The position numbers and the translations under genes are program-made. A model generated the notes under the pieces. The model was not told the DNA's origin. It made no database searches and worked only from the letters and a program-made list of their open reading frames with translations. A stretch of DNA of 64,000 bases from Sphaerolaimus hirsutus. Its lineage: Eukaryota; Nematoda; Chromadorea; Monhysterida; Sphaerolaimidae. The DNA lies in NCBI GenBank assembly GCA_964036195.1, contig OZ038460.1, positions 6,203,504-6,267,503 on the forward strand, given 5' to 3'. Shown in pieces: positions 5,501 to 61,200 of this stretch. Within the stretch, counting starts at the first letter, position 1, and the number at the start of each line of letters is the position of its first letter.

Positions 5501-7707
5501 TTTCCGTTTCCGTTTTTCCGGCCTCTTTTTCCGTTTTCCAGCCGCTGAAATTTTTTTTCCGTTTCCGTTTTCCGCCAAGTGCAAATTTTTTTCCGTTTTC
5601 CGTTCCGTTTTCCGGCCACTGAAATTTTTTTTCCGTTTCCGTTTCCCGTAAAAAATTTTTTTGACACCCTAGCTCCTACTCTCAATCCCTACCCATAAAA
5701 ACAGTCCTCATTTTTTACATCAACAACTGAAAGATACAAAATTAGCGGTGCCAATTCCGATCGTCTTTACAAGTTCTATTCTGGCAAAAAAAAGGTTATT
5801 GAGTCCCAATTCCTGACCCCCCAACAAACAGTCCAAATTTAACCCCAAACAACTTTTACATCTGCAGTAAATACACTTATCTCAATTGTCATCATTTTCG
5901 CAGAGTCTCAAAACGTTATCAGTGGAAATGATGAACACAATGGACCTATAATCGATGAAACAGATCCCGATATAAATGCGTGCTATAACAACCAGACAGC
6001 TGCAGGTGTGTAGATCGATTTGAATTGCAAACGTTTTTTAGCTATCAAAGGGTTCAAAAAAAATATGTTGGCTTTAACAAAAGTCGCAAATAGTTTTTAA
6101 CCGCGTTAAAAATCACAAATATAAGCTAATTTGTTCCAAATAATTTAAATTTACCAACACTCATCGCCGAAAATTGCATCTCCTTTCAGACAAAAATTTA
6201 CATTAAATTCCCCCCCCCCCAAAAAAATACACCCCCACCCCAAAAAACACCAACACGTTTTTTCAGCCGACCGTCTAGTGAGCTGGCAGAAAAAACGCAG
6301 TCGCCAAGATCTCCTAATCACCGACGTAACCGACGAGCCAGAGCACAAAGTTCCCAGGCACCAAAACCAAAGTCATAACAACCAACAGACTTACAACATC
6401 AACACTAATAGCGTTGGAAACGTGCAGTGCAGCGCGACTAGCGTTGGAAATGGGTCCATTGACACTTCTAGTGTGGATGCGTATTCGACTGATGGGCGAG
6501 GTGAGAAAAGGGTTTTTTTGCATTGATTTTTTGTGTTAGTGACTTGGCTTTTGGAGATAATTTTGTATTTTGTATTTTGACAGAATATTTATCTGTTTAG
6601 AAATTACTGTATTATCTCAGAAAATCTCCCACCCTCAAATAATTTCCTCAAATGATTTCCCGAATGACTTCCCTGTCTCACATTGGCAGTGTAAGCTTAT
6701 TCAATTTTAATATATTAACTATACCTATTTACCTGTAAGTATGCTCATAACATGGAAATTTTCAGAAGTGTTTGTATGAAGTGATGTTTACTTGTCCTTG
6801 CCACGAAACACTTCCAGAAATGTTATTAAGTAATATTATTTCATTCAAGTAAAAACATGTCAAGCAAGTCAAACCTTCAGTTTCCATGTGCCAGTCCCAG
6901 ACCCTGTAAAATGCCCTGTAAAATGTCAAAGGTCATTCAAAGTGTCAAAGGTCATGTAACATGCCCTGCAAAACGCCAACTCGGTTGCCATTTTGCAGGG
7001 AATTTTACGTGACTTTTGACACTTTGCATGACATTTGACATTTTACAGGGTCTGCGACTGCCCCATAGTGATCTCAATCGACAACTGTCAAATCGAAATT
7101 CGAAACCCACCCAAAATCAAATCCCACTTTTCCAGGCTCCAACCTGGGCTCCCCCACTCAATCGGGAGCCGGTTCCATCAGTTCCACAAACTCAAACTCG
7201 TGCGGCTCCAGTTCCGCAATGTCCAACGTGTCCACGTGCAACGAGTCCGGCACGGCCGGCACCGAGTCCACCAACGACGGAAACAGCAGCGCCAATGGAG
7301 ACTGTAATAGTGGAGATTTGGAGAGTGGTAACGGAGTCAATGGAGGGGGTTCTGGCAATGGGCAGGGGGGAAGTACCTGTGCTATGCTGTATGGATGGGC
7401 TGATTCAAGTGGGTTTTTGGAGGTTTTTGTGTAATTTCTATTTAATTCTATTTACCATTTTTCATTTGGATTATGAACCAAAATTTATTTTGACATTTTT
7501 CTCTCGCAGTGACAAATATGGAGTCGAGCCCTTCAATGGATCTACTCTGCCACAGCACCAGCGATGACAAGTAAATTTTTTTTAAATCTTTCTTATCTTT
7601 TATAAAATTCATTTCTTATTCTTGTTCCTCACGCCTGAATTTCTTTGAAACTCAGGCAAGAACTGCGTCAACTTTTGGCTGGGATCGATGAAGCAGGAAC
7701 TCGCTAA
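2562..7707 (+). CDS. HSF: Heat shock transcription factor, 5'-partial, 11 exons
   Basis: Heat shock factors trimerise and bind heat shock elements to activate chaperone genes in the nucleus. Exons, joined by GT-AG: 2562-2670, 2989-3128, 3456-3716, 3996-4130, 4400-4533, 4871-5025, 5904-6005, 6267-6500, 7136-7408, 7510-7570, 7656-7707 (stop TAA). Phases agree throughout, giving 551 residues. Exons 1-2 encode the second half of the winged-helix DNA-binding domain (FKHNN, RQLNMYGFRK, HSCFVRN). Exons 3-4 are a Gly/Ser/His-rich linker. Exons 5-6 form the HR-A/B coiled coil (ENQSLWSEITRQRAEYNKR, DVVHKLIQFLMRVL). Exons 8-9 are Ser/Asn/Gly-rich low complexity, as in activation regions. The first half of the DNA-binding domain is absent from the window. 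I saw no clear HR-C repeat. Introns carry MITEs at 5077-5671 and 6888-7064. HSF1/2/4 orthology cannot be decided. Confidence 0.9.
2797..2926. mobile_element. GGCGCC-rich palindromic MITE in HSF intron 1
   Basis: Inverted ends TAGTGATGGAAA and TTTTCCATCACTA surround GCGCCATGGCGC and similar self-complementary GGCGCC motifs. It lies wholly inside the intron between HSF exons 1 and 2. Related 'GTGATG' plus GGCGCC sequence occurs near 14582, 16120 and 52267. Confidence 0.5.
5077..5671. mobile_element. hAT-like MITE filled with TTTTCCG repeats, in HSF intron 6
   Basis: Ends TAGGGTGTCAAA and TTTGACACCCTA are flanked by a perfect 8-bp duplication GCTCCTAC (5069-5076 and 5672-5679). The interior is a degenerate array of TTTTCCGTTTCCG units. 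Phe-rich open frames here are by-products of that array. It sits in the intron between exons 5 and 6 of the HR-A/B region and the following exon. Confidence 0.85.
6888..7064. mobile_element. Palindromic GTGCCAGTCCC-family MITE in HSF intron 8
   Basis: The element starts GTGCCAGTCCCAGACCCTG and ends CAGGGTCTGCGACTGCCCC. Its two halves are inverted copies built from CCCTGTAAAATG and GTCAAAGGTCAT motifs. It lies within the larger intron 6501-7135 and belongs to the family whose copies at 47924-48116 and 23541-23734 coincide with whole introns. Confidence 0.75.
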
Positions 7708-22186: not shown

Positions 22187-23900
22187 TCAATAATAGTCCA
22201 ACCCATCCGAACCATCGGTCCATTTCTTGGCGCTTAGCGCAGTTTTTCCTGGCGCGGGTGAATTCTTGGCGCCAGTCTGGCGCCCCGCGGCCACATCTTG
22301 AATGTAAGCCCTTTGCACTTGGTGCTGATAGCGATTTTCGTGCGCCGAAAGTGCCACTTGAACATCGGCCGCCTCTGACGATCTGAAGGGGGGGGGGGTG
22401 GATTTTTCAGGGGTCGACGATTTGTTATAATTTTCTGACGCCACTAAATTTTTGGGATAATTTTTCACGCCCCCGTAGTTTTCGCGGAACACCCGGCGTG
22501 TTAGGCGTTGGGAGATGGGTTTTATTGGAGAAATTGCCGCTGTGCGCCGCCACAACATCTTAGTCCAGCTCCCCGGGGGTCTTCTAGGGTGTGGCTCAGT
22601 AAAATGGATGAAAAAGTTTTCTGTAGGTAGGTAGGGTTCAAATAAATGTAACATAGTGTCAATATGCGACATTTTCTTCGAAACTTTCGATTGCTTTTAT
22701 CTGAATATCAAATGCTTAATTCTCAACGTATCTATACTCACTCCGCGGATCGAATTTTTTGCCTTTCTCTGAATGAAATACTCCATTCTGACGTCATCGT
22801 TAAAATTGTACAGAAAAGGAAAAAGGTTTTAGGGAAGAACATTCGTCCCTTGTACGCACGCAGTCTTTTTCTTCTTGAAAAATTTCTGTTGTTTTTTTAA
22901 AGTGCGTGCATAAGTATCCTGCTGACGCGTGATCGACTGATACATAAGTAATTTTGGAGGCACACAATGCGGTCCGCCGAGTATAACGAAGTCCATTTGG
23001 CCCTAAATAATGAGGCACCCTGCACAAAGCGGTGCGAAACTCAGATAAATGACACTGGTCAGGAATCGGGAAGAAAATTGCTTCGGCGCATTTTAATACA
23101 TCTTATTTAGCTCGTCTTGTGCGCAGATTGTGCGAAATGCAATTTAAAAGCAATTTTCAGCTGCTCTTAAATCTGTTTGTGACTTAGACATCTCAAAGTG
23201 AATGGTGGGAAATTGAAAAATAGTTTATCCTGGTTGCCTTCTGTCAATTCACTTGCTGGATGTGAGTTTCAAGTAGATTTACGTCTGTATTTTTGAGACA
23301 AGGTATCCTTCTAAATATCAATTCTAGTTATTTGACACCACTTTTTACCAAGAATATAGCTTACAACGTTTCGTGCAAGAGTCACATACCACTGGTAAAG
23401 TCACATTTGCACTTGCACCGGAATAAGTCACCAAACCCACCCAACCCAATATAAACCCCACTAAAAACCCTCAAAATTAGACCCCCATACGCACACAATA
23501 TGAACATAAGCCTTAACAATGTCACTCATCCAAGGTCCATCTGGGGGCACTCCCAGATCCTGCAAAATGCCCTGTAAAATGTAAAATGTCATGTAAAGTG
23601 TCAAAAGTCATGTAAAATGCCCTGTAAAATGGCAAACGTACGTTTTCCATTTTCCTGGGCATTTTGCATGACTTTGACACTTTGCATGACATTTGCCATT
23701 TTACGGGGCATTTTACAGGGTCTGGGACTGGCACCAGTACTCCCACTGCCCCTTCCACAGCAAACCCATTCAACTATGCCGGAATCAAATGCCCTGTTTG
23801 TTGGTATTATTGTGCCGCGGGGGTTCACTAGGGCGCAAGAAAATTTGGGCGCCTTAGGATGCTGTAGTATGTAGACTTCGTTTGTCCATTGCGATTCGTG
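22187..23900 (-). CDS. Candidate exons of an unidentified gene, possibly RCK-containing
   Basis: A tentative minus-strand series, not a proven gene. Exon 23900-23735 begins HESQWTNEVYILQHPKAP and joins, across the palindromic intron 23734-23541, to a 23-nt exon 23540-23518 (GPWMSDI) with phase kept. A last open block ending in a stop at 22187 contains RRTAAISPIKPISQRLTRR and SAHENRYQHQVQRAYIQ. Just upstream, 24310-24223 reads RHIVVCGSRGIGSEFSLHP and would splice in phase to HESQW. HIVVCG followed by a helix and a V-Y-I-L strand resembles the RCK (Slo/BK) regulatory fold, but no pore sequence was found. The joins could be wrong. Confidence 0.3.
22733..22985. mobile_element. Diverged TATACTCGGCGGACC-family element
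   Basis: The left end TATACTCACTCCGCGGATCG and right end GCGGTCCGCCGAGTATA are imperfect inverted repeats of the family at 12379 and 32486. The interior differs and is about 60 bp longer, so this is a separate sub-family or a chimera. Confidence 0.5.
23541..23734 (-). mobile_element. Palindromic MITE forming a candidate intron (introner C)
   Basis: On the minus strand it starts GTGCCAGTCCCAGACCCTG and ends CTGGGAGTGCCCCCAG, so the element begins with GT and ends with AG. The arms (CCCTGTAAAATG, GTCATGCAAAGTGTCAA and inverses) are mirror images. The sequences on both sides are open in one frame when it is removed. The host gene itself is uncertain. Confidence 0.55.
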
Positions 23901-25026: not shown

Positions 25027-25640
25027 ACCCACCGACGCATTTCTGCATATGCAAACTAGCCCCCTCCTTATCATCTTCATAATCTTCCCCTTCCTCGTCC
25101 AAATCAAAACCTAGCATCATTTCCAATTGCAAAGTGTGCCATTCCAACGTGCCCACCAGGGGGCAGTCCCACACCCTGTAAAAAGCCCTGTAAAATGTAA
25201 AATACCCTGTAAAATTTCATGTGTCATGTAAAAGATGCTGTAAATTGTCATGTGTCATGTAAAAGACCCTGTAGTGCCATGTGTATCAAAATCTCATTCT
25301 ATAGTATCAAATCTTGTGTTTTTGTATCCAACCGCTTACGTTTCACTACAGAAAAAGATTTCGATACGTATGACACTTTACAGTGTCTTTTACATAACAC
25401 ACAACATTTTACAGTGTCTTTTACATGACACCTAACATTTTACAGAGTCTTTTACATTTTACGGGGTCTTTTACAGAGTCTGGGACTGGCACCAGACATT
25501 TCTGCTGAGTAATGGTGTTGGCGCCAGAGTTTGGCGCTAGCGCCAGTAGGGAGCCCAGGGGGAGGTAGAGCAGGAGAGTGTGCACCAGGTGGGGGTTGGG
25601 GAGATGGGACTGCGTTGGGGGGGGGGAGTTTGCTGAGTAG
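25027..25640 (-). other. Candidate exons flanking a palindromic MITE
   Basis: Minus-strand open blocks lie on both sides of the MITE at 25159-25493: a proline-rich block (PPPGAHSPALPPPGLP, ending near 25494) and an acidic block (FDLDEEGEDYEDDKEGASLH, about 25120-25040). Two different phase-consistent joins are possible, so I do not build a model. They could be upstream exons of the candidate gene at 22187-23900. Confidence 0.25.
25159..25493. mobile_element. Palindromic GTGCCAGTCCC-family MITE
   Basis: On the minus strand it starts GGTGCCAGTCCCAGACTCTG and ends CAGGGTGTGGGACTGCCCCC. The interior consists of CCCTGTAAAATG and GTCATGTAAAAGAC units facing their inverses. Unlike the copies at 23541 and 47924 it has no AG directly at the 3' end. 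Confidence 0.7.
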
Positions 25641-35026: not shown

Positions 35027-35455
35027 CTTATCAGCCACTGGGGCTGCGCGGCCAAATAATTTCGCTTCGATCAGCCACTGGGGCTGATCGACATCGTTTT
35101 GCCGCGTCGCTTTGCCACTGGGGCTAGCGACATTGCGGCGACGCTTCGCGCCGGTTTTCCCGACTCGATCAGCCACTGAGGCTGACCGAACCATCGTTTT
35201 TTCCGCTGTGCCACTGGGGCCAGCGGAACGCCATCGTCAATCCGATCAGCCACTGGGGCTGACCGGAAGAAAATCGTTTTTTTGTCGCTGAGCCACTGGG
35301 GCCAGTGACAAGGTTTTTTTGATCTACCTGGCCACTGGGGCCAGGTAGAGTTGATCGATAGGGCGCTGGGCCCTGTTTCTGTTGGGTGCCGCGCCGTGTT
35401 TTCATTTTTCTGGTGCTGCACGCCCACACGCGATCCAAAGGCGCCACTGGGGCGC
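35027..35455 (+). repeat. Leader with about nine GCCACTGGGGC hairpins
   Basis: The 11-mer GCCACTGGGGC (one copy GCCACTGAGGC) recurs at about 35034, 35083, 35114, 35172, 35210, 35248, 35292, 35331 and 35443. Each copy is flanked by a different self-complementary arm: GATCA/TGATC, CGCTG/CAGCG, ACCTG/CAGGT, GGCGC-type. Constant loop-side sequence with changing but paired stems suggests selected RNA structure, for example for packaging, dimerisation or translation control. Confidence 0.7.
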
Positions 35456-35653
35456 CATTTGTGCAGGTTGCTGCGCGGTGTGGAATCTTGGCACGGTGCC
35501 AATTGCTGCACGTGCTTGCATTCACATCGATTTTGGATCATTTTTGGCACCTACACGCCTCATCAAAACTCCAGTTGTGTTTAGTCACTCCTGCACCATC
35601 TTTGCACGTGAATTGTGCCTGTGCAGATTTCGTGACTTCTCACATTTTCCGAC

Positions 35654-35930
35654 ATGTCGCAATATACGCGAGCGGAACTGGAGCCGGTGGTCGAATTGTG
35701 GGTGGAGCGCACTGAACGGCAAAAATTGCTGCGTTTGCTCAATGTGCTCTTGCAGTTTCGAATTGATGGCGATGATTGGCCTACGATTAGTGATCCGCCC
35801 CGCCTGGGAACCGTGCCACTTGTTCGGCATGTATGGCGGTGCATGGACCTGTATTTCACTGACCCAAATACTACATTGGAATTGGTGCTTGACCTCGAAG
35901 ATCAAATACCACCCGTTGGCATTGGGAACG
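35654..35930 (+). pseudogene. N-terminal gag reading frame, cut off by a frame change
   Basis: The ATG at 35654 opens a frame with a gag-like acidic/hydrophobic N-terminus (SQYTRAELEPVVELWVERT). Around 35925-35950 the coding character passes to the next frame, which continues as the long gag-pol frame. The overlapping earlier part of that long frame (35382-35925) is Cys/Trp-rich and not coding-like. Either a single-base change broke gag or the switch is an assembly error; the exact position is not resolved. Confidence 0.55.
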
Positions 35931-38900
35931 ACCCCACGCCGCCTCCCGGTTGTGGCCGCCCAACCGGCTGCGGCGCTAACCGTGGACAACCTTTTGCCGG
36001 CTCTCCAGCAGCTGCTATCCAGCAATCCGACATTCGTCCAGCGATTGACTTCACAATCAGTGCCGGCGCACACGGCACCGGTTCAAAACGCGCCTGCAAA
36101 TTTGCAATCGGTACCGGCACCTGGCACAATCAACCGCTGTTCATCAGCGACCCCTTCTGCTTCCACGGACCAGCTAATTGACTCCACTGAAGCTAGATTG
36201 CAAGCCGTCTCTTCGTCACCTGGCGGTTTGATTGGTCAAATTGCCGCCTACATCGACCAATACGTCATGGTACCGGCCGATGGTTTTCCGTCACTCGTGG
36301 ATACTCTGGGACAAATGTCGTCTCACGATCGCATGGGTGGTGGCCATGTGGCCAACGTAGCCAGCAAACAAACGCCGTTCAATGGGGATTCGAGCGCGCC
36401 ATCGGGGCCGTTTAAATTTTGGCTTCACAATGTGGCGTTACAGGCTCTGAACGTCCCGCCGGCATACCAACACTTGTTTTGGACCAATGTTTTCCAACAG
36501 TGCCTGAAAGGCAGTGCGCAGGCACATTACACTTCTATCCGCCTCGACAAATGCAATTCTATACTTTACGTTTTGGACCAGTTGGCATGTGTGTATCGTG
36601 TGGACCGCAAAGCGCATTCGGTAGCTGAGTGGTACAGAATTTCTGCTAACAAATCTGACACTGTGGTCTCCCTGTACAACAAGTTGTGCAATTCATTCCA
36701 CTACATCAGCGAGCAGATCGACGACTCACAACGTGAAAAAATGATTGGGGATAAATTATTCCTCGAGATTGGCAGTATACTGCCGATTTCGCTTTGGTGT
36801 CGGTGGCGCGATGAATGGCGTGAAGGTCGGTATCGACTGGCTGATGTCGTTGGTCGCCTTGACATATCGCGCGAGGAAAATTTACATTTCCGTGCCGAGC
36901 AGAACAAACGACGTAATGCTAATCGAAAACCAAAGCCGTCGCGGGGTGGAAATGCCGGGTGGGGCAACGCTCCATCGGCTGCGGCTGCATCGCAAAATGC
37001 CTCGGGCCGATCGGATCGTCAGAAGGGCAGCTGGGATAGGCAGTCCAAATTTGACCCGACGACACACCAGGGTCCATGGTGCACTTATTTTTTGCATCGT
37101 GCTCCCATGCCGCACGAGCCGGAAAAATGCTATTTGAACCCCGCTTCTCCTGCCTTCCGGGCTGACCAAGCTGAAAAGGTCAAAGCTAACCTCGAAAGCA
37201 CTAACAAATCTCAGGAGGATGCAAAGCGAAATATGCTAGCTGAGTGCAAGAAACTAAACTTGAATATGAACAAATGGTCGACCCCGAGCGCTAAATCCAG
37301 CAGAAGTGGCAAACGGAATACGAAAGCCAGGACTACTGCTCCGCCTGCACAAGCCTCGGAACCAACCTCTGACTCTGAGCAGTTGGACTCGTGGTTTCCA
37401 CATAGCGAGTCTGCCCGCCCAGTTGCCGTCCGACGGGCTGACAACGAATTCTGTAATCGGGCAGTCGCTAAAGTCAAATTCATGGGCTGTACACTAACTG
37501 GCCTACTCGACAGCGGGTGCGATGTCAGTATTGTGATCGAGGAGCGCCTTTTGGAGCACGCGTGGAATACGGCAAAACGGGACATATTGGCAGAAAAGGC
37601 CAAGTACCGGCCCTACCCATATCCGCATTTAGGCACGACGGGTGAACCGATTCCCAGCCAGCACCTAGCATTGTATGATATGCATCTGCAGCACACCACG
37701 CCCGACAATCGGCGTCAATCCGCGAAAGTCACAGCGGTAGTTAAATTGAAAGAATTCTGCCGGCCATCATCCGACCCATTGCTGTTTGGCCATGAAGCTC
37801 TTTATGGCCCATTGAAAATGAACCGCACTTCTATTGCGGAACACCAGCGCTTGGAGCAAAATTATGTACCGGTCGCCATGGGCACTTTTGCAAGCCCATT
37901 GCCTCAGGCTAGGCGGTCTATCCCGGTACACTCAGTGGCTGATGTGTGCATTCCAGCAGGTTGCCAGCGACAAATTTTGGCTGCTGCTGACAAGGGCGTT
38001 CCTCTGGAGGGCGACCTTGGTTGCGGTAAGGCGGCCTACATTATCGACAGCCGCTACCGTGATTCCAATTCAAATGACTTGGTTGAATTTTCGCCGGGTC
38101 TGGTGTGCGATACTGCATTGCATACCGAACGGGCTATTCTAGACGAGCCTTCATTCCCACTATGCCTGACAAATCAGTCTGGCGACAATGTGCGACTCCG
38201 AGCTGATACACCGGTGGCCGAAATTTTCACGGCCAACAAAATACTGGTTGAAAGCGAGCCGCCGTCGGTGAACAAGGCCGTTTCTCTGCCCTCTCCGCCC
38301 GATCTGGCCAAACTTCCAGACTTGTCACTGCCACTCACTAGTGAGCAGGAAGCATATGTCCGTGAAGTTTGGGCTCGCTTGCCAAGCGACGGCTTCGAAG
38401 CCCTACTGGCCAAATTCAGGGAAAATTTTCGAAAACTTTTGGCGCACCAGTCAGGCCTATTCAGCCTGTCTGAATATGATATTGGGAAAACGCATATTCT
38501 GGACCATAAGATTTCACTGGTTCCGGACGCGCAGCCCGTCAAGTGCGCTGTGAGATTCGAAACTCCACCGAAGCGCGCTTTCATGTGGCGCACGGTGGAA
38601 GAGATGATGCAGCGGGGCCTCATTGAGCCCTCTTCATCGCCATGGGCTTTCCCTGTTGTCATAGTGCCCAAGGGAAAGGACGACTATCGTCTATGCATCG
38701 ATTTCCGCCGACTAAATGAAGTTACCGTGCGGGATGCATATCCTTTGCCGCGCATCACCGACATGCTATTGCAGCTATCGGGCCGATCTCTATTTTCGGT
38801 TATGGATGCCAGCTTCGGCTACTATAATGTGGCCATCACTGACCCGGACACGCGCAACATGGTGACTTTTGTGTGCAGCCGGGGCCAGTATAGCTTCAAG

Positions 38901-40440
38901 CGCATGCCTCTGGGTTTGGTCAACTCTGGCGCCAGTTTCCAACGGCTCATGGATTGTGTGCTCACCGGGCTGAATCGAGAGCCCGAGCGACCTAATTTTT
39001 TTGCATACATTGATGACGCACTGGTGGCCAGTGATAGCCCTAAGGAGCATTGCATGCATTTGGCACAATTCTTTGCACGCCTCCGGTGGGCCGGGATTCG
39101 GCTCAAGCCGGAGAAATGCCATTTTTTCAAAGAAAAGGTGCAATTTCTCGGATTCGAGGTCAGCACCCGTGGCATCGCTCCGAAGCAAAGTAATGTGGCT
39201 GCGATTCTGGAACAGCCCGTGCCAACTACTAAACAAGAGCTGCGACGGTTCCTAGGCCAAGTGGGCTACTTTAGCGCCCACATTCCCGGCTTCCACCGCT
39301 ATCAATCTCCATTGCATGCTCTATGTAAAGGGACATATACTGCAAAAGGCGCTGACCCAATCCCTTCATTTTCGGAATGGCCCGCTGTCGCCCAGCAGGC
39401 CTACAACGTATTGAAGCAGAGGCTAAGTACCGCCCCTCTTCTGGTGCACGTGGACCGCGACAAGCCGTTTTACCTCTACAGCGACGCATCAGACATCGGT
39501 TTGGGTGCTGTCCTAATGCAAGAGGACGGTCAGGGCAATTTGCGCCCTGTTGCTTTTGTGTCCAAGTGTCTGCCGACTACTCATAAAAATTGGTCGGTGA
39601 TTGAAAAGGAAGCCCTCGCCGTAACCTGGGCCCTTGATCGACTCGGCAGTTACATCGATGGTGGCCATGTCAAAGTTCGCACTGACCACAAGGCTTTGAT
39701 GAATGCACTCACTAAACCCTCCAAAGGGAAAATTGAGCGCTGGACCCAGCGTTGGGCTATGCGCCTTTCCCTGCAAAATTTGGAGATTGAGTATGTGCCC
39801 GGTGAGCAGAATGTTGTCGCCGATGCGCTAAGTCGTGCGCCAGTTGACGACATTGACTCTGCTGCATTTGAACGGGCCAGTGAAGCCATCAAGCTGCCTC
39901 TCGACAAAATTTGTCCTCACGTGTCAAATACTAGCCCTTTTGACTGGGCCAAGGCACAATCTACTGATCCTGAATCACAGAAAATTCTAACTGCACTTGA
40001 CGTGGGCCAAATTAAAAAAGCCCAATTCGTCAAACGCAAGGGTGTCTTGTACACAAATTGCCCCCGTGGTTTCGTGCCATTCGTGCCTGCTGCATTGCGA
40101 CAGCAGTTCATCAAGTTGGCCCATTCGGGGCTGACTGGCGCCCACGGTGGTGTGGAACGTACCCTGCGTCAACTTTACACTGCTGGACATTGGCCGCAAA
40201 TTCGCCGTGACGTCCAGGCATACGTTGCCCAGTGTGAAGTCTGTCGACTTACCAAGGATGCCCAGCGCACTTGTGTGAGCCCGTTATTCCCCGTGACCCC
40301 GGGCACCCGGCCTTTTGCTAAGATTGCTGCCGACACAACTCCAATGCCTAATTTCAATGGCTATCGTCACATCTTGGTTATTGTGGATTACATGACGCGT
40401 GCTGTCGCCCTGGCTCCATTGCGGAGCGCCAATGGGAAGT
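35930..40440 (+). CDS. gag-pol: protease, reverse transcriptase, RNase H, integrase N-part
   Basis: One open frame of the Ty3/Gypsy type, open from 35382 but judged coding from about 35930. Gag residues lead to a Cys/His segment near 37075 that is not a canonical CCHC knuckle. Protease has LLDSGCDVSIV near 37505. Reverse transcriptase shows YRLCIDFRRLNEVT (38686), LPRITDML, and the catalytic YIDDALVASD (39004). RNase H begins FYLYSDASDIGLGAVLMQ (39468) and includes TDHKALMNAL (39682). Integrase opens with the HHCC zinc domain (HSGLTGAHGG, then CEVC near 40233), followed by the first catalytic Asp at about 40330. The frame then fails: its last residues to the stop at 40506-40508 do not match integrase, whose core continues in the next frame from about 40430. 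Confidence 0.9.
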
Positions 40441-42813
40441 GTCTGTGCTGCACTGGAGCGGGAAGTCATTCACCGTTTCGGGTCTCCCACGACGTTGATC
40501 AGCGATAATGGGCCTGAGTTCGCAAATCAGGACTTAGCTGCGCTCGCTGACAAGTGGGGTTTTACCCATCGGAAAACGACCCCGTATCATTCACGTGCAA
40601 ATGGTCTAGCTGAACGCGCTATCCGCAGTGTCGAGCAGTTGGTGCGCCAGTGGTCGGCGCACAACAGCAACTCCTCTAATTGGCCCATTGCATTGCCCGA
40701 AGTTGCATTTAGAATGAATGTGGCGTATAATCACGATGTCGCGCACCCTCCCTTTGAGCTACTGTTTGGTTACGTGCCATCGTTCTTGGGAGGGGCTGGG
40801 GAAGCATTGCTTGAAAATTCTATAAAAAAATCGGCTGACCCTGCAACAGTCGACCCTAATCTGCAAGCTGAGAGTGGGGATAGTGACAGCGATGACAACG
40901 GGCCAGTTCAGCGCCCTGCTGTTAACAAAACTAAAACCATCTATAAAACCAAATTCGCGAAAACACTGCATAGCGTGGCTACCATTGTGCGAGATCGTGC
41001 CCACCAAACTTCTGGCCAGCACGTACATCTCTGGCGTAAAGCGCGCGAGTGCCTTAAGCGAGCCCAAGTCCGCTATAAAGCCGCATTCGACAAACACGCT
41101 GGCCGCACGCTTAAAATTGGCGATTTGGTTCATCTCCGTAAAAACTTTGGCATTTCGGTTGATAAGAAAATTGAACCGCTTTACTCCGGCCCATTCGAAG
41201 TGGTTGGAATAGATAAATCTGTCGCCCTAATTGACACTGGCACCCAAATTCGCAGAGTGCCTACCGATTTATTATTATTAAAATCCACTATCCAAAATCA
41301 CGTCATGAGCAAATCCGGCAAATCTAAAAAGGGTGATAAGGCCCCCTCCTCTAATAGGGGGTCTCTTTATTCTGGCAGTATGGACGATTTCCGTGAGAGA
41401 TTGGCCCGCCAGCCCGTTCGCGCGGGCAGCGACGACTCCGTCTGGCACGTGGGCAATCACGACCAGCCCCAGCATCAGCATAGTCGGTCACCATCGAGGC
41501 ACCGACGCGATTTGGCGGCTGAGAGCCGCTCTCGTTCTGGTTTCTGGCGTGCGGACCGTGATCCTGCGAGGCGCACCGGGGCCACTGACCGTCGCCCTCC
41601 ACCGCGCTTGGACGATGTGTCTCCTATCCGCAAAGGCGTCAATCACAAGGATCGGGACGAACAGCGCCATATCTTTGGCAAGCGCCGCTACGACAATATC
41701 CACCACAAGGATCGGGTCCCCATTGATAATGACCCGGTTCTTCCTGCGAGGCATTTGTCTGCCTCCCTGTCAGCCCGCGCTGTAGCTGAGGAGCTCTATC
41801 GCCCGCCTACGCCGCCCGCGAGTCAGCCCGCGCCTGTTTCCAAGCAGCCTTCCCGCTCGGTCTATGTGCCGCCGCCGCAGCCTACTATCACTGCTACCAC
41901 GCCGGCTTCCGAGGCTTATTCTGCTGCTATGGCCGCCGTTAGCGGTCAGGTTCCCGAGCGCCAGCTACTATTCGACGTCCGCTACATTCGCAATATTCTC
42001 GATGAGCGGCATCGCACCCATTTGCTCTATCAAGCCGTCGATCATTGGCAGCGCACTGTCGACGATCTCACTCTGCACAAAGAGCGGGATCTGCTATCTC
42101 AGTATGCTGTGAAAATCGAGGAGATCACGCGCCTGAATACCGAGCGAAATGATTACAAGAATCGGTATACTACGTCCCAAGCCGAAAGCAAAGTTATGGC
42201 TGCTGACTACCAGAAGAAAATTGCATCCCTCAAGGAGCAGCTGCGCCTGAGCACTGACCGCTACTCTAAATTAGAATCTGCTCACGCTCAGCGCCAAGTC
42301 GAGTATGAAGATTTGAAGAACATGGCTGAAGGCCTCATCCGCGATTGGTCCATCGAGCACCGCGCATTTGCTAAGGCCGCCCCTAATTCCGTCGGCCCCG
42401 ACACGGGCCCACCGTCCCTACGCGTGCGCACTATTCAGCAGAAGATGGCCCGCAGCTTTTCGTGCCCCTCTGGAGGGGACTATTTCGAGCTGGATTGCCT
42501 GCATGGCCTGTCTTTCCCACCTACTGTCACCGAGCCTCCTGTCGTGTCCGGGCCCGCTATTGTGCCCGTGTCCGAGCCCGCCACCGTGGTCGTGTCTGAG
42601 CCCGTTGTCGTGCCTGGGTCCGAGCCCATCTCTGTGCCCGACTCCGACCCCGAGCCTGCACGCGCATCTCCACCTGCCAAGAAGCCACTGCCTGATTCGG
42701 TGGCCAAGTCGAGCGAGCCTACTGTGGAAGTGCACGAGATTACCGATCAGAGCATGGCCCTCAACCTGTGCACTGGCCGCGCCAAAGATTCATCTGTGTG
42801 GCGCCCGTTTTAG
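40430..42813 (+). CDS. Integrase C-part with long coiled-coil extension
   Basis: This frame (open from 40399, ending at TAG 42811-42813) carries the second integrase Asp in SDNGPEFANQD (40501) and the catalytic Glu in ANGLAERAIRSVEQL (40600). The C-terminal DNA-binding fold follows (DLVHLRKNFG, LYSGPFEVVGID, about 41125-41280). About 500 further residues follow, which is unusual: an Arg/Asp-rich stretch (41330-41750), a Pro-rich segment, a predicted coiled coil (KKIASLKEQLRLSTDRYSKL, 42120-42340) and a Pro/Val/Glu-rich tail with SEP repeats (42530-42660). No signal peptide or membrane span is seen, so it is not envelope-like. It lacks its own plausible start and is cut from pol by the frame break. 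Confidence 0.85.
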
Positions 42814-44155: not shown

Positions 44156-47100
44156 TCAAATAGGCAAAATGACCTCATCAGAAGTAAAGTCCATCAAACT
44201 GCCGCTAAAGCTACCATAAACGCAGACATTTTCCGGACTTTTTTCACTCGATTCTGATTTCACAATTTCGGTCGTTTCTTTTTCCGGTGCAACTTCTTCA
44301 TCATCAGGCATAACGATCACATCCGGCGAATTGTCTCCCGGTTCCTGGTTCGATTCAGGTGCCGGTTCCGGTACGGTTTCGAAATCTTCACCGTATTTTT
44401 TCAGTGCCTCCTTTAAGCCACCTGAATATAATTGGTTGGTGGTTAGCTACGTTTAAATAAATTGGCATGCAATAAAAACTGGGCACGAAAGCTTAGTGCT
44501 CAAACGAAACCGACCTTTCCAGGATACAGTCACTAAAATTGGACGTAAAGCGCCCGACACGCTTACTTAAGCGCTGAAATTGTGCGTGTTTTTCAGTGGT
44601 TACACGCGTGTCGGGCATCTTACGGCCTAATTGAATTTGGCGCCAGGGTTACGACGTATAATGCACTTTTAAATATCAAAAAGGACACCGACAAGCCCCA
44701 AAACACACCATATCTACACCAAAAAACACCTCCCAAATCCACCCACCAAGATTCTGCCACTGCGACAGGGAACTATCCGCGGCCACATTTTCCAGCCACT
44801 CCAAAGGGCGCCAAGTTCCGGGCAAATGCAGAGAGTAACGGCCACACTTGTAGTCGGGCACCGACTGCAGAATGGCTATTAAATCCGACGGGGTGAGACG
44901 TTTGGATACGGTTAGACGCCGGTTGACACCGGTGCCCGTTGAGTGCTGTAGGGGGGGGGGGGGTTATTGTGAGAGGGGAAGTTTTGTGTTGCAAAAACTG
45001 GAACTAGGGAGCACTCCCAGACACTGTAAAATGCCATGTAAAACGTAAAATGTCATGCAGTTTTTAAATTGAAGTGAAAAGCCCTGTAAAATGGCAAACG
45101 AGAATGCCATTTTAAGCGCTTTTTATTTTTTTAATACTTTGCGTGACACATTCGACATTTTACAGGGTCTGGGATTGGCACCAGCCTCTGACTGTCTGCT
45201 CTATCATAATGAGAAACATGCGTGGTTCGTGCTTCCTGAGGTTTCAAAAAAGAAAGCTGTTGAATATATAATACCACCGCAAACTCTTCATAAAAATTCC
45301 ATTTCAACCCGCAAACTCTTCACAAAAATTCCATTTCAACCCCCCCCCCAACCCACACTTTTCAACTTGAATTTCGCCGCAATTTTATGCACCAGCATTC
45401 TCTGATCCTTTGACAAATCCCTCGCAAACGTAATGGACGGTAAGTCGCCTTCCGCGGATGTATGTCTCGATGCCAATTCATGCAGCATTCTTTCGACAGC
45501 GGCGGAAAATTGTCGAAAATCGAAACCTGTCTCCACACCGGAACTGAAGCCCAGCCCCTGGCGCATTACTACTTCGTTGGCGGTAATCGGTTCCGCCATA
45601 CCCTGTGATTTGTTGCAGTAACTTTGGTGCCGAGGGTTGTGCTGTTTTTTTTGGTCAAGTTTACGTTAGTAAAGAGTGACACTATACCAAAATTTGACAT
45701 TATACAAAATAAGATATATTTTCTGTTTTATACTTCAAAAACGCTATAAAATATCATCATTTATTTAGAGCCGTGTAGAAAATTTGTAGGAAATGGACAA
45801 AAAGCAGCGAAATGAACAGATTAGATTGTGAGAATATCAAAGATAAACTTCATTTTTGTCAAACCTCAATAACTGTCAAACACACCTGCTCCGATTTGCC
45901 CAATCCTCCCCCACTCCAGCCCATATTTTTCATCATTTTCATGGCCGCCGTAGAAACGCCTTGAGCCCTCTGTTTGGCCCGTTCATTTTGCACATCGCTA
46001 AGCAAATCTTCGATTTGCACGTCGCTATTAAAGCCATGCAGATCGGAAAATTTCTTAGTGTAGCTGTCCGGGTCAAATATTTGCACAGTATAACAGATGT
46101 GTGCAAAAAGTCGGATTGCACTTTCGGCGGAAGCCTGCGTGGGGTTTTTCCAAAGTTGTGATTAAATGACAAAAATGGCGCTGCGCACACTCAAAGGTGC
46201 CACGGGTGACGGGGGCCTCGCCGTAATGAAAACCCGGCCGTAATGAAAGCCTGGCTGTAATGTATGCCTACCCGGCCGTAATGAAAGCCTGGTCGTAATG
46301 TAGCATCCCCTACATTACGGCCAGGCTTTCATTACGGCCGGGTAGGCATACATTACAGCCAGGCTTTCATTACGGCCGGGTTTTCATTACGGCCGCTACA
46401 CCCTCGCTAACCTTCTGTTTCATTTTTGTATTGTTATCTTTTTCAACTTATTCGAGGGAGAGTTATTTTTTCACCGCTTGGCCAACAGGGAGAGTTTTTC
46501 AAGGGGGTAACTGCAAAATCAAGTGAAGGGTTTACCGGAACTGGCTAATTTCACATAATGTTTCGATAACCCGACAGACATGTTTTCATAGCACCTAACG
46601 TTTCACAAATCAATGACATTCGAAACTTCTACACAGGAAAGGGTTCACAAGAAAATTCGAAACATTAGAAATTTCACTTGACTTGTTTCATTTCTTAGTG
46701 CTTAGAAAACAGTAAAAAGATATCCGAATTATCCGACAGACCTGTTTGGCCATTTTCACGGTGCGCGCGCACACCTCGGACTCTGGCACTCTTTGATTGT
46801 TAAATTTTATCACAGCCCTGCGAGTTGGAAAAGTGCCAGAAATGCAGCGTACCGCTAGGGTTGCAAAAACTATTTTTTAAACTGGTTGTATACCTGAGGG
46901 TTCCATAACCGCTCAGCTATCTATCTATCCCGGAGGCAAATGTTTTGGCTACTATCCCATAAACCATGGCGGACCGCAAAGTATGCGCAGAACCATACCA
47001 TATTTTAATGAATAGAATTTTGTGATAAATTTCGTCATTGATTATTCCACAGAAAGAAAACCCCCGAAATATTATGATGAAAATGTATAATTTTTGGTTC

Positions 47101-49045
47101 ATTATTCAGATGGGTTATGGTAGGTGTCCATACAAAGTGTGAGGTCCGCCGAGTACACAACGTCAAAACTGACCCCCACCAAACCTCCTCCATCCGTTTG
47201 GCGCAATATCCTCGTCAAAACTCATTTTAATCTTTGAAAAATGCGCGCTTTGATGCAGCACGCCGGTGGCTGTTTTCACATTCGTACGATGTATCAAAAC
47301 CAGGTTATATGGATTGGAATTCTGCGGAGTTTTCGGAACGGGCCCACCGCTGAAGCGCGATTGATATTCCTGTTGGTAACTGCGCATGAGGAAGGTTTAT
47401 TGGGAAAAAGAATGGTATTTACTAGGGATGGCCGAAAAAGCAAGTTTTTTTCAACGCAAAGTTATTTAAAACATAAAACCGTTTTTTTTCAAACCTCCCA
47501 GATATGGTTATGAGTGAACATTTGACTAAATAGAGAAAATTTGAATTGAGAAAAATTGAAGAGAAAATTTCTATCATGAAAAAATAAGTGCACTTATCAC
47601 AGATCCGCACTTAACTCATTTTTTCTACTTCGGTCTTTACCGACATTCGGAACTAGATGCCTCAGATACGTACTCAATTTTTGTCATTTTGGCGCTAATG
47701 TACTTATGAAACGAAACTCTTCATTTGTCATTCCACCTTGAAAATAAATCTTTGCAAAAACGCACGTTCTAAACTCCGCCTCCTCACCCTGATCAGACTC
47801 ATCAGCAGTGACAGACTTCAGCCACCTATGCTGTTCGTGAATTTCCCGATTCAATTCCGATTCATCTACATATTTCTTCATAAGCATAGGCTTTTTTCGT
47901 TGCTGGCGCCAATTATTTGGCGCCTGGGGCAGTCCCAAACCCTGTAAAATGCGCTGTAACGTGTCAAATGTCATACAAAGTGTCAAAAGTCGTGTAAAAT
48001 GCCCTGCAAAATGGCAAACGTATGTTTGCATTTTGCAGGGCATTTTACACGACTTTTGACACTTTTCATGACATTTGACACTTTACATGGCATTTTACAA
48101 GGTCCGGGATTAGCACCTGGCGCCCATAATCGTAGTTCCCTTGGCGCTCATTGTACTGTTGTTGAAATTCATCGTAATCATCTTGATGGAAATTTCTCTT
48201 GTTTTGGTAGGCCGGGTTTCGCATATCTAGTGTTGCGGATATGCCTTCATCTTGGCGGAGAGATTGGCGCTGGTGAGCTGCATCTTGGCCATAATCATAT
48301 TGTGATGCATTATGTTGCTGTGGTCGGGAAAAATTCTGCTTCTGATATCTGGGGCCAGTTCCGCAAGTGGAGAAGTGAGAAGTCGGCAAAAGCGAAGTGA
48401 ATTGAGAAGTAAAATGGTGAAGTGAATTTTTTTTATTTTACTTCGCTTTTGCCAATTTACTTGCCATTTCACGTCGCTTTTGCCATTTGACTTCTCCACT
48501 TGCGGAACTGGCACCTGGGCCTCTGGAAGTCGTTTGACATGTCATATTGTGATTCGTGGGAACTTTCACCCGTCGATTGGCCGAGTGCATGTTGCTGGGT
48601 TAGAGCGTCCAGTTGGCGCTGCGTTTATTTGGGTACTTTACATTTCGGTATACTTTACTTTACTACAATCGTGAATGTACTCAGTATGGTAATAGAGTAC
48701 TCAAATCCCCAGTATGGTAATAGGGTCCCCAATGAGGGGTAAAAGTACATGCGGTAAAAATCGCCATTTTCGCAAGTTTTTCTGCCGCACAGACGGCTTC
48801 AAATCTCATACAACACGCAGCCGTAAGGCACCCCAAAAACACCCAACCCGACCACGTACCTTCTGCCACTCAAGCCAACCCTTAGCGGCCATCCCTCTTT
48901 TACCTCTACCGCCCCTTCCCGTTTTCTGGTAAGTTTGCGGCGGCGGCACCGACGCCAAATTGGCGTTGGCGCCAGCGCCAGGCGTAAAATTGAGTGTATG
49001 GCGCCAAGAAGAGCCGGGCTCGCCCCATCGGGTTATTTTTGGCAT
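44156..49045 (-). CDS. G-patch and R3H domain protein, NKRF-like, paralogue 1
   Basis: Predicted nuclear RNA-binding protein of the NKRF architecture. Exons: 49045-48860, 48618-48515, 48348-48117, 47923-47766, 47379-47185, 46120-45886, 45602-45357, 44945-44747, 44421-44156; about 606 residues. The N-terminus is Gly/Arg- and Gln-rich. Exons 5-6 may hold a dsRBD-like helix (AESAIRLFAHICY). Exon 6 carries the G-patch (NMGWSGGGLGKSEQ) and exon 7 the R3H-type segment (EVVMRQGLGFSSG to AAKFKLKS). Exon 8 has LTVSKRLTPSDLIAILQ, and the last exon is an acidic tail ending in TSDEVILPI. Human NKRF also has G-patch followed by R3H. Introns 2 and 3 are each exactly one palindromic MITE. The exon 5/6 junction is the least certain: an acceptor after CAG at 46135 would suit the domain better but needs another phase. 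The nearby tandem paralogue is at 58254-63454. Confidence 0.78.
45009..45182. mobile_element. Palindromic GTGCCAATCCC MITE within intron 7
   Basis: On the minus strand it starts GTGCCAATCCCAGACCCTG and ends CAGTGTCTGGGAGTGCTCCC, followed at once by TAG. It occupies the middle of intron 7 (45356-44946) of the 44-49 kb gene, but that intron has its own outer splice sites. Same family as 47924-48116. Confidence 0.7.
46219..46395. repeat. Near-perfect palindrome of GGCCGTAATGAAA units
   Basis: GGCCGTAATGAAAACCCGGC, GTAATGAAAGCCTGGCTG and GTATGCCTACCCGGCCG run to a centre at about 46305 (TAGCATCCCCTA), then the whole block returns inverted. It lies in intron 5 of the G-patch gene. Pairing along some 80 bp per arm would give a very stable hairpin. 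No target duplication was identified. Confidence 0.8.
46966..47157. mobile_element. TATACTCGGCGGACC-family MITE, diverged copy
   Basis: GGCGGACCGCAAAGTATGCG at the left and GTGAGGTCCGCCGAGTAC at the right, with the family core between. The outermost bases are decayed. It lies in intron 5 of the G-patch gene. Confidence 0.7.
47924..48116 (-). mobile_element. Introner B: palindromic MITE that is intron 3
   Basis: On the minus strand the intron runs from GTGCTAATCCCGGACC to TTTGGGACTGCCCCAG. The element spans it entirely: the arms CCTTGTAAAATGCC and GTCATGAAAAGTGTCAAAAG face inverted copies around AAACATACGTTTG. Exons on either side join in phase 0 (NYDYGRQ to APNNWRQQ). The element is bordered by GGCGCCA on both sides, an imperfect 8-bp duplication (7 of 8), and the acceptor AG falls in the duplicated flank. 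Confidence 0.85.
48349..48514 (-). mobile_element. Introner A: palindromic MITE that is intron 2
   Basis: On the minus strand it starts GTGCCAGTTCCGCAAGTGG and ends CCACTTGCGGAACTGGCCCCAG. Inner arms with GAGAAGTCAAATGGCAAAAG are inverted. Removing it joins phase 2 exons without loss (SNDFQRP, R, YQKQNFSRP). It belongs to a different sub-family from introner B. No clear target duplication. Confidence 0.85.
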
Positions 49046-58253: not shown

Positions 58254-61200
58254 CTAATCCAACCACCATTCATTTGTGTCATTAGTCACGGCATTCCCGT
58301 GCAGAACTTTCTCATCACCCGGCCGAAAATCGATCATATTTTTCAGCGGCACTTTGGATTTTGGCTGAAATCCAGGATTTTTCTTGCCCATCATGTCTTC
58401 CATCAATTTCCTATTCGCTTCCCTTTCCTTTACCAATCTGCCGCCCCGTTTCGAGCGTTTTTTCTCCGGTGTTCCGTCCGAATTTCCGCCATCGAATTGA
58501 CTCGGGGGCGGTATTTGGGCAGTGGGCGGAGCCCACGGCCTTTTTGGTCCTGGGAACCTTTTGGCAGTTGGCCACTGTGCGGGAGCTTTTGGACCCCATT
58601 TTGGCCCGCCGCCAGGTCCGCCTTGCATAGCTGCGGGGAAATGAAATAAGAAAATTAGAAAGCTGGGATGTACGGTAGAGAGTTAATTAAAGAGATGCCT
58701 TTTTAAATTGTCTAAAGAATTTTGAAAAACTATGTTTTCTTTTTAGACCTTGACACGACCTAGACACGACCACGATCTTTTCCCATAGACCGATTTACTT
58801 CTTGTTGTGTTTTTGGTTTTTGTAATTGAAAATCAATTCCATTTTTTCTTATCATGACTGCCTAAATAGTACAGTACCAAAAGACGTAGAGGAAAAAGTA
58901 GTTGGCCATTTATCCAGATACCGAAAATACTATAAGTACTGAAAATCACGAACACTGCAACTACTTCCCACCGAATAGCCAAGGGCTTGTGTTCCAAATT
59001 ACTGTTTCTAACCTCTGACTTTAGCTCCGCCCCTTTCGCCGCGTCTTTTCTCTCCAGGTCTACCTCCGACATTCATAAACAGTTGCTCTTGACTAGGTAA
59101 ATAAGACCCACCCTGGCTCTGATACTCAGCGCCAGGGTAAAAGTACTCTCCGCCTGGGTAGTAATACTCTGGACCGGGGTAGTAATACCCACCGTCGGGA
59201 GGGTAACCATACGCTTCAGCGGGGTAATAATGCCCGCCGCCCATATTGAAAAAAGACTCTGCATTCGATTGATAAGCGTGCGCTGGTCGCGGCGGCCTCA
59301 CAGCTTTAGTTTTCGGAAACTGCATAGATCCGGGTTTTTGCACATTTTGCTTTTTCCACGGCGCCGCGCTCGGTTTGAACGCCGTCGGCGCCGCCGCTAG
59401 CGCTTGTATAGAATCCAGATTTTGGGCGATTTGGGAATCAGAATTTTCTAAGGTCGCAGATGCATCCGATGGTATAGATCCAAGATTTTTGGAAGTTCCA
59501 GATGCAGGAGGAGGCACTGAAGGCTGCGGGATGGGAATGTGACTGTATGGTGCAACATGGCAAAAGTTGTAATTAGCCATTTATTTTGTGAACTGGGTTA
59601 GGTAAACGAAATCAGTGTACTTGTACATTGTACAAACGAATCCCGATCCCGGTCCCGAGACCCAAATCCAAAAACAATCCCGATTCCGAAAAGTCGATCC
59701 CGTTTGAACCTTAACCAAAAGTGTTCTTTTTTCAATGTGCATCATATCGATACCGATTTTATATAATTCAGAAAAATTCAACTGCAAACCAGAAAATTGT
59801 CAGTTTCACGCAGAAAACCTAAAAAATAAACAGAGAAATACCTTTTTAAACTCCGGCTGGCTATCTTGACCTTGGGCGTTTTTTGAGTACGCTTTGTCAA
59901 CTGCGCTTGGATGATCACTCGTTGATTCTTCATCTTTGTCAAACTCAGAGTCATTTTCAGTTTCTGCGTAATTCGGGACACTAAATTCAGACATTGTCTT
60001 TATATTTTGTGGTGTATTTGACTTTGAGATAACGACATAAAATGTAATCGCCAAAAGTAGGTGTAAAATAGCTCAAAATAGGTATACAAGAGCATTTAGT
60101 ACCACAAATTGCTGAAAAAAGCCTATAAGGTGATTTTGGAGGTGAAAAAGTCAATAAAACGGTATGATCATTGGCGATTTTGACCAAAAATTTGGGTATA
60201 ATTTCTCGAAAATTGCTCCAGATTGGTAGATTGGGGGATTGCCCCCAACCCCCAATGGGGCCACACACGCAAGTTGACATCGACACCAAATGTCAACTGG
60301 TGCCGATCCCGATTCAAAGCTTGCTGACGAACCGACGATCGACGCTCAGACGCAAGCTTTGAATTGGGAACGGAACCAGTTGACATTTGGTGTCGATGTC
60401 GACTAGTGTGTGTGGGGCCATTGGAGACCCCTGCAACCACCCAGGAACTTACCACCACCCTCTTGTTGCTTCAATTTATTCCTGCGAATTGTGCGCCTGC
60501 TAGGCGGCACGGTCGCCAGCACTTGTTCCGGCGGCAGCATTTGACTGGACGCGTACTGGAGTTGACGCGATTCTGAATTGGGGTGTATTTTTCTGAATGA
60601 TAAGTTATTGAGTTGAAATAATTGTATGAAGATGAAAAGAATATTATAAAGGTATTTTGCAGAGATATTGTTTACCACATAGAAAATACTCGATATTGGG
60701 TATTCTATGTGGGAAATCGTTACTTAAAGACACTTCACAGCTGAGCCCTAACTAGTTTCTACAAAAATGTCTTATCTACAAGGGCGATTATCTACCTTAC
60801 AAAACAAAACAAAACAAATAGCGGCACTTAAAAATCAAAACATAATTATGCAAGCAAAGCGGTCTATGTCTCGGTGTTGGAAAACAACAACTTTTCAACC
60901 ATATCTGCAATCAAATCACCATCACCAACCACCGTAATTTTTTTCACGAACCGCGCATTTCTCCAACAAACAAAAAAAACAAAAAAAAAATCCCCAACCC
61001 ACTAACCAATCTTAGCAAACTTCTTCATTCTCACACTAGTCGCCAAAATCTCGTCTACATCCCAACTTCCGGGCGGGAAAACCTTATACTTGCCCAACCT
61101 GCCGTCGGGCATGGCGAGCACCAGGTCGAGCAGCTGCTTGGGGGGCACCTGCTTGCCGATGGTCAAGTGCTGCCCGCAGTTGGAGGTCGCCTGGTTGGGG

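Follow-up and report, generated by a model that had tools for sequence, protein, structure and literature searches.

A hairpin transposon family with CWG target duplications as a probable source of introns in the nematode Sphaerolaimus hirsutus

Introduction

Introners of the MITE kind reportedly occur in the algae Aureococcus and Micromonas, where, as Huff et al. are said to have found in 2016, the elements have terminal repeats and one splice site is supplied by the target duplication, given as 8 bp for Aureococcus. The family that we describe here from the nematode Sphaerolaimus hirsutus resembles these algal elements in its terminal repeats and in drawing one putative splice site from a duplication, a likeness drawn from their descriptions; it differs from them in its host and, from those of Aureococcus, in the length of its duplication.

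Introners that have one splice site within the element and co-opt the other from the target duplication are known (Gozashti et al. 2022, PMC9860276), and by the account of that paper animal introners have been reported in only two groups, of which copepods are named (PMC9860276). The introners described there are near-identical introns that come from a non-autonomous DNA transposon, with the sequence restored by splicing, and the elements analyzed here appear to be of the same sort (PMC9860276). The Chrysochromulina class, according to the legend of Fig. 2C of that paper, carries the 5′ splice site and co-opts the 3′ one, the same logic that we propose for the intron studied here; however, Chrysochromulina introners have 4-bp duplications and lack terminal repeats, whereas the present elements, in an animal, have 3-bp CWG duplications, strong terminal repeats and a hairpin formed by the whole element (PMC9860276). 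A 5′-CWG-3′ duplication is made by the NuwaI group of the PHIS superfamily, which has a DDE transposase and occurs mainly in animals (PMC4482050). Our family shares this target duplication, but NuwaI elements are described as transposons, most autonomous candidates having two genes, with no link to introns in that paper's account of the group, whereas we studied MITEs alone (PMC4482050). In Fritillaria, another animal, non-canonical introns make up 95% of the total, with AG/AC and AG/AT the most frequent, and intron-making transposons with weak splice sites have been suggested to aid the tolerance of non-GT/AG introns (PMC13326754). Unlike the mostly non-canonical introns of Fritillaria, GT-AG is available in most of the copies counted here, and GT-TG would apply only to a minority (PMC13326754). 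Introners and CWG transposons are each known, and among the open-licence papers listed in our searches we found none that joins the two; what is new is that this animal has a hairpin family of CWG type, which is well supported as an introner.

Results

The window (the whole stretch of 64,000 nucleotides analyzed, contig OZ038460.1, positions 6,203,504 to 6,267,503) contains a minus-strand NKRF-like gene with G-patch and R3H domains, and intron 3 of this gene, predicted at 47924..48116 (minus strand, 193 bp, phase 0), is made up of one candidate introner copy plus the acceptor-side CAG. Its termini are GTGCTAATCCC...GGGACTGCCCCAG. The transposon proper (47927..48116, minus strand), GTGCTAATCCC...GGGACTGCCC, has terminal inverted repeats, as do MITEs of the PHIS/NuwaI type, and its ends were placed by aligning 43 copies; one C at its edge could belong either to the element or to the duplication. 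The exon-side CAG of the 3-bp target duplication lies at 48117..48119 and the intron-side CAG, the proposed 3′ splice site, at 47924..47926 (both minus strand), as judged from the end alignment, the shuffles described below and the joined site. The donor GT is the first two bases of the element, and the acceptor AG lies inside the duplicated target; GT at the 5′ end and AG at the 3′ end are found in both intron 3 and intron 2. Removal of intron 3 joins the exons as ...GGC CGC CAG^GCG CCA AAT..., in one open frame and in phase 0. The original prediction had given the sequence, coordinates, ends, palindrome and phase 0 of this intron, all of which were reproduced. It had also placed the boundaries of a MITE at the splice sites, as the end alignment and the joined site confirmed, and had drawn the donor GT from the terminal repeat and the acceptor AG from the duplicated flank, a reading that was upheld by the alignment of copy ends.

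The two arms of intron 3, each of 81 nt and 90% complementary, are spaced by 15 nt, and its RNA was predicted to fold into a single hairpin of -130.7 kcal/mol, compared with a mean of -44.5 for shuffled sequences (z -22; none of 200 shuffles was as stable). The motif GTGCYARTCCC occurs five times in the 64-kb window, against 0.02 expected.

Exon 1 of the host gene (48860..49045) begins with ATG and is followed by an ordinary GTACGT donor; exon 2 (48515..48618) and exon 3 (48117..48348) follow, the frame being open across introns 2 and 3, and exon 4 (47780..47923), the 3′ end of which is not fixed, remains open to about 47687 (all minus strand, from open frames). Downstream on the same strand, and in the same gene, are open frames with a G-patch domain (45859..46161, minus strand; Pfam 6.2e-06) and an R3H domain (45339..45665, minus strand; Pfam 0.00032, below the Pfam cut-off). 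The joined protein matched, at 35% and along a third of its length, an NF-kappa-B-repressing-factor-like protein of Tribolium. We considered whether the gene model might be an artifact, with intron 3 no more than an intergenic MITE: joined exons 1–4 had no match in Pfam, and NKRF relatives aligned in the G-patch/R3H part only, with no alignment at the exons that flank intron 3. Against this reading, which we regard as very improbable, exons 2–4 without introns 2 and 3 give ∼160 stop-free codons in one frame and stops in the other two, the G-patch and R3H frames lie downstream on the same strand, and an equal arrangement is found in conserved genes elsewhere in the genome. By eye, a likely tandem G-patch/R3H paralogue (weak G-patch, 0.17) lies ∼16 kb away at 61450-61977 and 61002-61349 (minus strand), and a separate long palindrome of ATGAAAGCCTGGCCGTA-like repeats lies beside the NKRF-like gene at 46221-46400.

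Intron 2 (48349..48514, minus strand), defined by sequence comparison and by the joined site, contains the second introner. It had been assigned to a different family, but only the interior differs; because the two introns have in common the GTGCCAGTtCC terminal repeat as well as a duplication of CAG, intron 2 is, to judge from its sequence, the same kind of transposon as intron 3. A wholly separate second family was ruled out by the shared terminal repeats. Another copy of the family (45008..45181, minus strand), with an imperfect CTG/CTA duplication, sits between two coding frames of the NKRF-like gene, and the frames on both sides of it align to relatives. Elsewhere in the window, copies lie at 6888..7064 (plus strand; CAT/CAT duplication, from motif search and end alignment), at 23544..23734 (minus strand; CTG left and CAG right, from end alignment) and at 25160..25492 (minus strand), the last being a longer copy of 333 bp with the same terminal repeats and CTG/CTG. 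An element of the intron-2 type with GTGCCAGTTCC ends, CTG left and CAG right, was seen at L050 6070-6282, and a second, very uniform subfamily, GTGCCAATCCCAAGCCCTGTAAAGTG..., has the same ends and target (e.g. G000:C1:10861125-10861322, in the CTG/CTG list). The window also holds long open frames of 1717 aa and 805 aa at 35355-42813 (plus strand), which, to judge from their motifs, may encode a Ty3/gypsy-type retrotransposon polyprotein.

A genome search with intron 3 yielded 4,655 candidates, the best 40 of which were scored; these are the copies most similar to intron 3 and no random sample. The 39 other copies were taken with 600 bp per side, and the ends of 43 copies, four of them from the window, were aligned, the 333-bp window copy standing outside this set. 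The consensus begins with CWG, continues as GTGCCAGTCCC...GGGACTGCCC(C) and closes with CWG. Duplications were counted in 40 copies, leaving out L025 and L041 (score 18) and L028 (wrong register): the end pair was CAG/CAG in 23, CTG/CTG in 7 and CTG/CAG in 5, with CAG/TAG, CAG/AAG, CCG/CAG, CAT/CAT and CTG/CTA in one copy each, so that the identical pair CAG/CAG or CTG/CTG was present in 30 of the 40. Copy-specific identity between the two ends was clear only at the W of CWG, where it was reached in 0 of 2000 shuffles (across the remaining offsets, -8 to +5, the lowest values were 0.042 and 0.0585). The target duplication is CWG, as in PHIS/NuwaI MITEs. The sequence GGCGCCA on both sides of intron 3 had been taken as an imperfect 8-bp duplication; it arises because the target is itself palindromic at this point, reading GGCGC-CAG-GCGCC once the empty site is joined, and given this and the copy-specific identity at W only, the 8-bp reading was ruled out, the true duplication in the 40 copies being the 3-bp CWG. 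Of 41 copies, 24 have C ahead of the left CWG, and G is the base most often found behind the right CWG; the target therefore leans to CCWGG.

Next to the copies, coding sequence was sought in 42 copies scoring at least 18 (L028 excepted, L025 and L041 kept) by joining the flanks without the element and one CWG and keeping frames of at least 55 residues that run across the junction with at least 12 residues per side. This gave 117 frames across restored sites, 64 sense and 53 antisense, in which 30 Pfam families were found with E ≤ 0.01, no family in more than one frame (25 of them named). A set of 20 proteins, 18 from the 64 sense frames and two shorter ones from outside them (L021, L044), matched exactly 30 families at E ≤ 0.01, including those 25, in 11 copies; because the 30 families are all accounted for in sense frames of these 11 copies, none is left for the antisense frames. 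All 11 copies for which Pfam gave a match at E ≤ 0.01, whether spanning the site or next to it, are in sense orientation, and in 7 of the 11 the match was above Pfam's cut-off. The matches were to GH63 (L010; ungapped by coordinates across the junction), Myb (L012), ZP-N (L018), a kinase (L022; a CTG/CTG copy), WD40 (L027), a ligand-gated channel of the glutamate-receptor type (L045; CTG/CTG, ungapped across the junction, 79 residues to 79 profile positions) and EGF (L047), and, below the cut-off, to FYVE_2 (L014), vinculin (L017), VWD (L020) and cation efflux (L029; on one side of the junction only). No Pfam match at E ≤ 0.05 was obtained for L021, L044, L013, L015, L024, L030, L042 or L046, and L034 had only a weak one (0.011). 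Four frames, sense only and picked by eye, were searched against PDB sequences and matched GRK2 (L013, 1.7e-26; pair CAG/TAG), cadherins (L024, 1.1e-22), VMAT (L030, 6.6e-25; CTG/CTG, the alignment gap-free across the junction, MGYL^VDLRHV) and, weakly, K2P (L046, 0.035). The check suggested with the original prediction, that genic copies have GT 5′ on the sense strand, was thus borne out in the 11 Pfam-matched copies and in 3 PDB-matched copies, the latter from sense frames picked by eye.

The ends of the family coincide with intron ends, as judged from the end alignment and from the coding sequence restored across junctions. MITEs are common in introns, and nothing dates intron 3, so that a MITE could instead have landed inside an older intron, replacing or filling it, the intron then predating the element. 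This origin is most improbable: in both intron 3 and intron 2 the element ends coincide with the two splice sites, with no intronic remnant, and at other loci removal of the element restores conserved protein sequence, which together argue against it. An insertion into exons is what we continue to favor. G+C within 60 bp of the copies was 59.5%, compared with 40.0% farther out and 40.4% in the background (n = 38 copies; p 2e-18), and these flanks are exon-like in G+C; since the target prefers C before CWG, part of the excess may reflect site choice. In the joined exon of L010, the left CTG lies at a Trp codon within the ungapped GH63 match and the right end is CAG, and this copy has apparently acquired its acceptor AG. 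Among other features of the genome, a 10-kb tile (L067, G000:C16:8000001-8010000) has 57% G+C in a genome of 40% G+C, and L074 (contig C762; 14,754 bases) is a mitochondrial genome with the invertebrate code and a rearranged order, nad2 and nad1 on the minus strand and then cox1, atp6 and cox3 on the plus strand (genes named from frames; COX1 by search). Among the 120 rows listed of 7,999 matches, this COX1 was 64-67% identical to those of named insects, and to other sequences it was 89% and 79% identical.

We then counted matches to the pattern CWG-GTGCCANTCCC-N{150,180}-GGGANTGCCC-N{0,1}-CWG, with its fixed length range, in the 348-Mb genome. There were 1,446 matches (CAG/CAG 715, CTG/CTG 434, CTG/CAG 221 and CAG/CTG 76), compared with 0 in each of the four classes for reversed-pattern controls, and left and right CWG were associated (Fisher 1e-118). 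Because CWG is self-complementary, random orientation of insertion predicts equal numbers of CAG and CTG, with A-to-T and T-to-A changes in balance. The CAG:CTG ratio was 936:510 at the right (putative acceptor) end (p 2e-29; 1:1 expected) and 791:655 at the left end (p 0.0004), and CTG/CAG outnumbered CAG/CTG (p 1.4e-17), the p-values of all these counts being too small, since clustered copies are not independent. Equal-length neighbors with the same end pattern cluster at C9:24.96-25.76 Mb (CAG/CTG list) and C2:10.4-11.2 Mb (CAG/CAG list), and some copies are therefore duplicates of one insertion; both clusters look like single insertions multiplied by local duplication. We read the asymmetry between the ends as probable selection for a splice acceptor, together with loss of CTG insertions in genes. 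Alternatively, the right-end CAG excess might be a by-product of transposition, from a carried base or a biased CWG mismatch, with no selection on the acceptor. CTG/CAG pairs do occur where no exon is known, in the window copy at 23734, whose frames matched nothing in Pfam, and in L050, but a by-product would leave the left end, which is the original target, even, whereas an excess of CAG was seen there as well, although clustered duplicates weaken both figures. We consider this explanation unlikely as a whole; carry-over may account for some of the excess at the right end, though not for that at the left, and selection on the acceptor remains our preferred reading. A control with a dead donor gave only 2 copies in the CTG/CAG class. 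A 200-kb sample (20 tiles) held few intact copies.

Intact CTG/CTG copies lie in sense orientation inside conserved protein in L045 (channel), L030 (VMAT) and L022 (kinase domain); exact removal of these copies would be GT...TG, which a simple GT-AG model does not explain. In five CTG/CTG copies, scanned for donors from -30 to +70 and acceptors from -80 to +31, none of the pairs listed (at most 30 per copy) was a GT-AG pair that consistently kept the protein unchanged; one net-zero GT-AG pair among them, in L045, would swap residues. Within that range, and among the pairs listed, a consistent canonical GT-AG alternative for the five copies was ruled out. Human TG 3′ splice sites occur, according to the account in PMC2374985, only beside an alternative AG; in the present family the element's own ACAG lies ∼19 nt upstream of the acceptor end. 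The likeliest single alternative, to which we give considerable weight though somewhat short of even, is that the CTG/CTG copies in exons are unspliced disruptive alleles or lie in dead gene copies. It would accord with a junction that has no AG, with the outcome of the pair scan and with the human TG acceptors (PMC2374985), but in 3 of 3 homology-supported cases, a number that is not significant, the flanks are clean, conserved and in sense. For the family at large, splicing at the ends of the element remains our favored interpretation.

A different way of removal was also considered. Pairing of inverted repeats triggers SOS splicing, and the transposons that it removes have hairpin-forming inverted repeats and are excised independently of orientation and splice dinucleotides. 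Such repeats are present in intron 3, the RNA of which would be an almost perfect 193-nt hairpin, and SOS splicing is known to excise transposons from animal mRNAs (PMC13247085). Removal of the exonic CTG/CTG copies, and perhaps of the whole family, could proceed by hairpin-triggered SOS splicing, with ligation by RTCB, and not by the spliceosome. However, a hairpin is alike in both directions, and SOS splicing should therefore leave orientation random, whereas every one of the 11 Pfam-flanked copies is in sense; the enrichment of AG is, moreover, much stronger at one end than at its opposite. The orientation and the acceptor-end excess together argue against SOS splicing for most copies, and we hold it to be improbable, preferring removal by the spliceosome.

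At least 163 DDE_Tnp_4 matches were found in the genome (150 of 306 candidates scored), and these are not linked to the MITE ends. Most of the listed matches have an open frame of ∼300 aa and score almost alike, with roughly four in-frame TGA codons inside the part that matches (perhaps an intron). The set is possibly a young Harbinger-like family and, on its domain content, might be the presumed mobilizing element.

Discussion

Intron 3 is very probably an introner, a CWG MITE of PHIS/NuwaI type by its target, which would have been inserted into an exon at CAG and would take its GT from the element and its AG from the duplication. In the mechanism that we propose, a non-autonomous cut-and-paste DNA transposon would land in an exon at CAG, and the initial GT of the element would serve as the 5′ splice site. 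Insertion would copy the target CAG to the far end, where its AG would serve as the 3′ splice site, and splicing would remove exactly the element and one CAG, restoring the reading frame as it was before insertion. As RNA, the intron would form one long hairpin that may bring the two splice sites together. The abundance of similar copies makes ongoing intron gain, with the recency of insertion that it implies, plausible.

More tentatively, with less than even confidence, we suggest that this hairpin introner is spliced at whatever the target gives: CAG copies would be spliced as GT-AG introns, CTG copies would function as GT-TG introns with the aid of the hairpin or of the ACAG inside the element, and CTG acceptors would later turn into CAG by a single T-to-A change, as the 221 CTG/CAG against 76 CAG/CTG copies might reflect.

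The origin of introns is an old question, and here the target of a single family, with 1,446 matches, is 3 bp long and self-complementary. Whether an insertion receives an AG or a TG acceptor would thus be an even chance, and the family would hold a built-in neutral control for measuring selection on splice sites. Splicing of the CTG copies would mean that the AG rule is relaxed in this animal; if they are not spliced, the cost of a missing AG could be read from the counts. Should CAG copies indeed give GT-AG and CTG copies GT-TG introns, the family would show new introns in large numbers, in a natural series that spans the gain of a canonical 3′ splice site.
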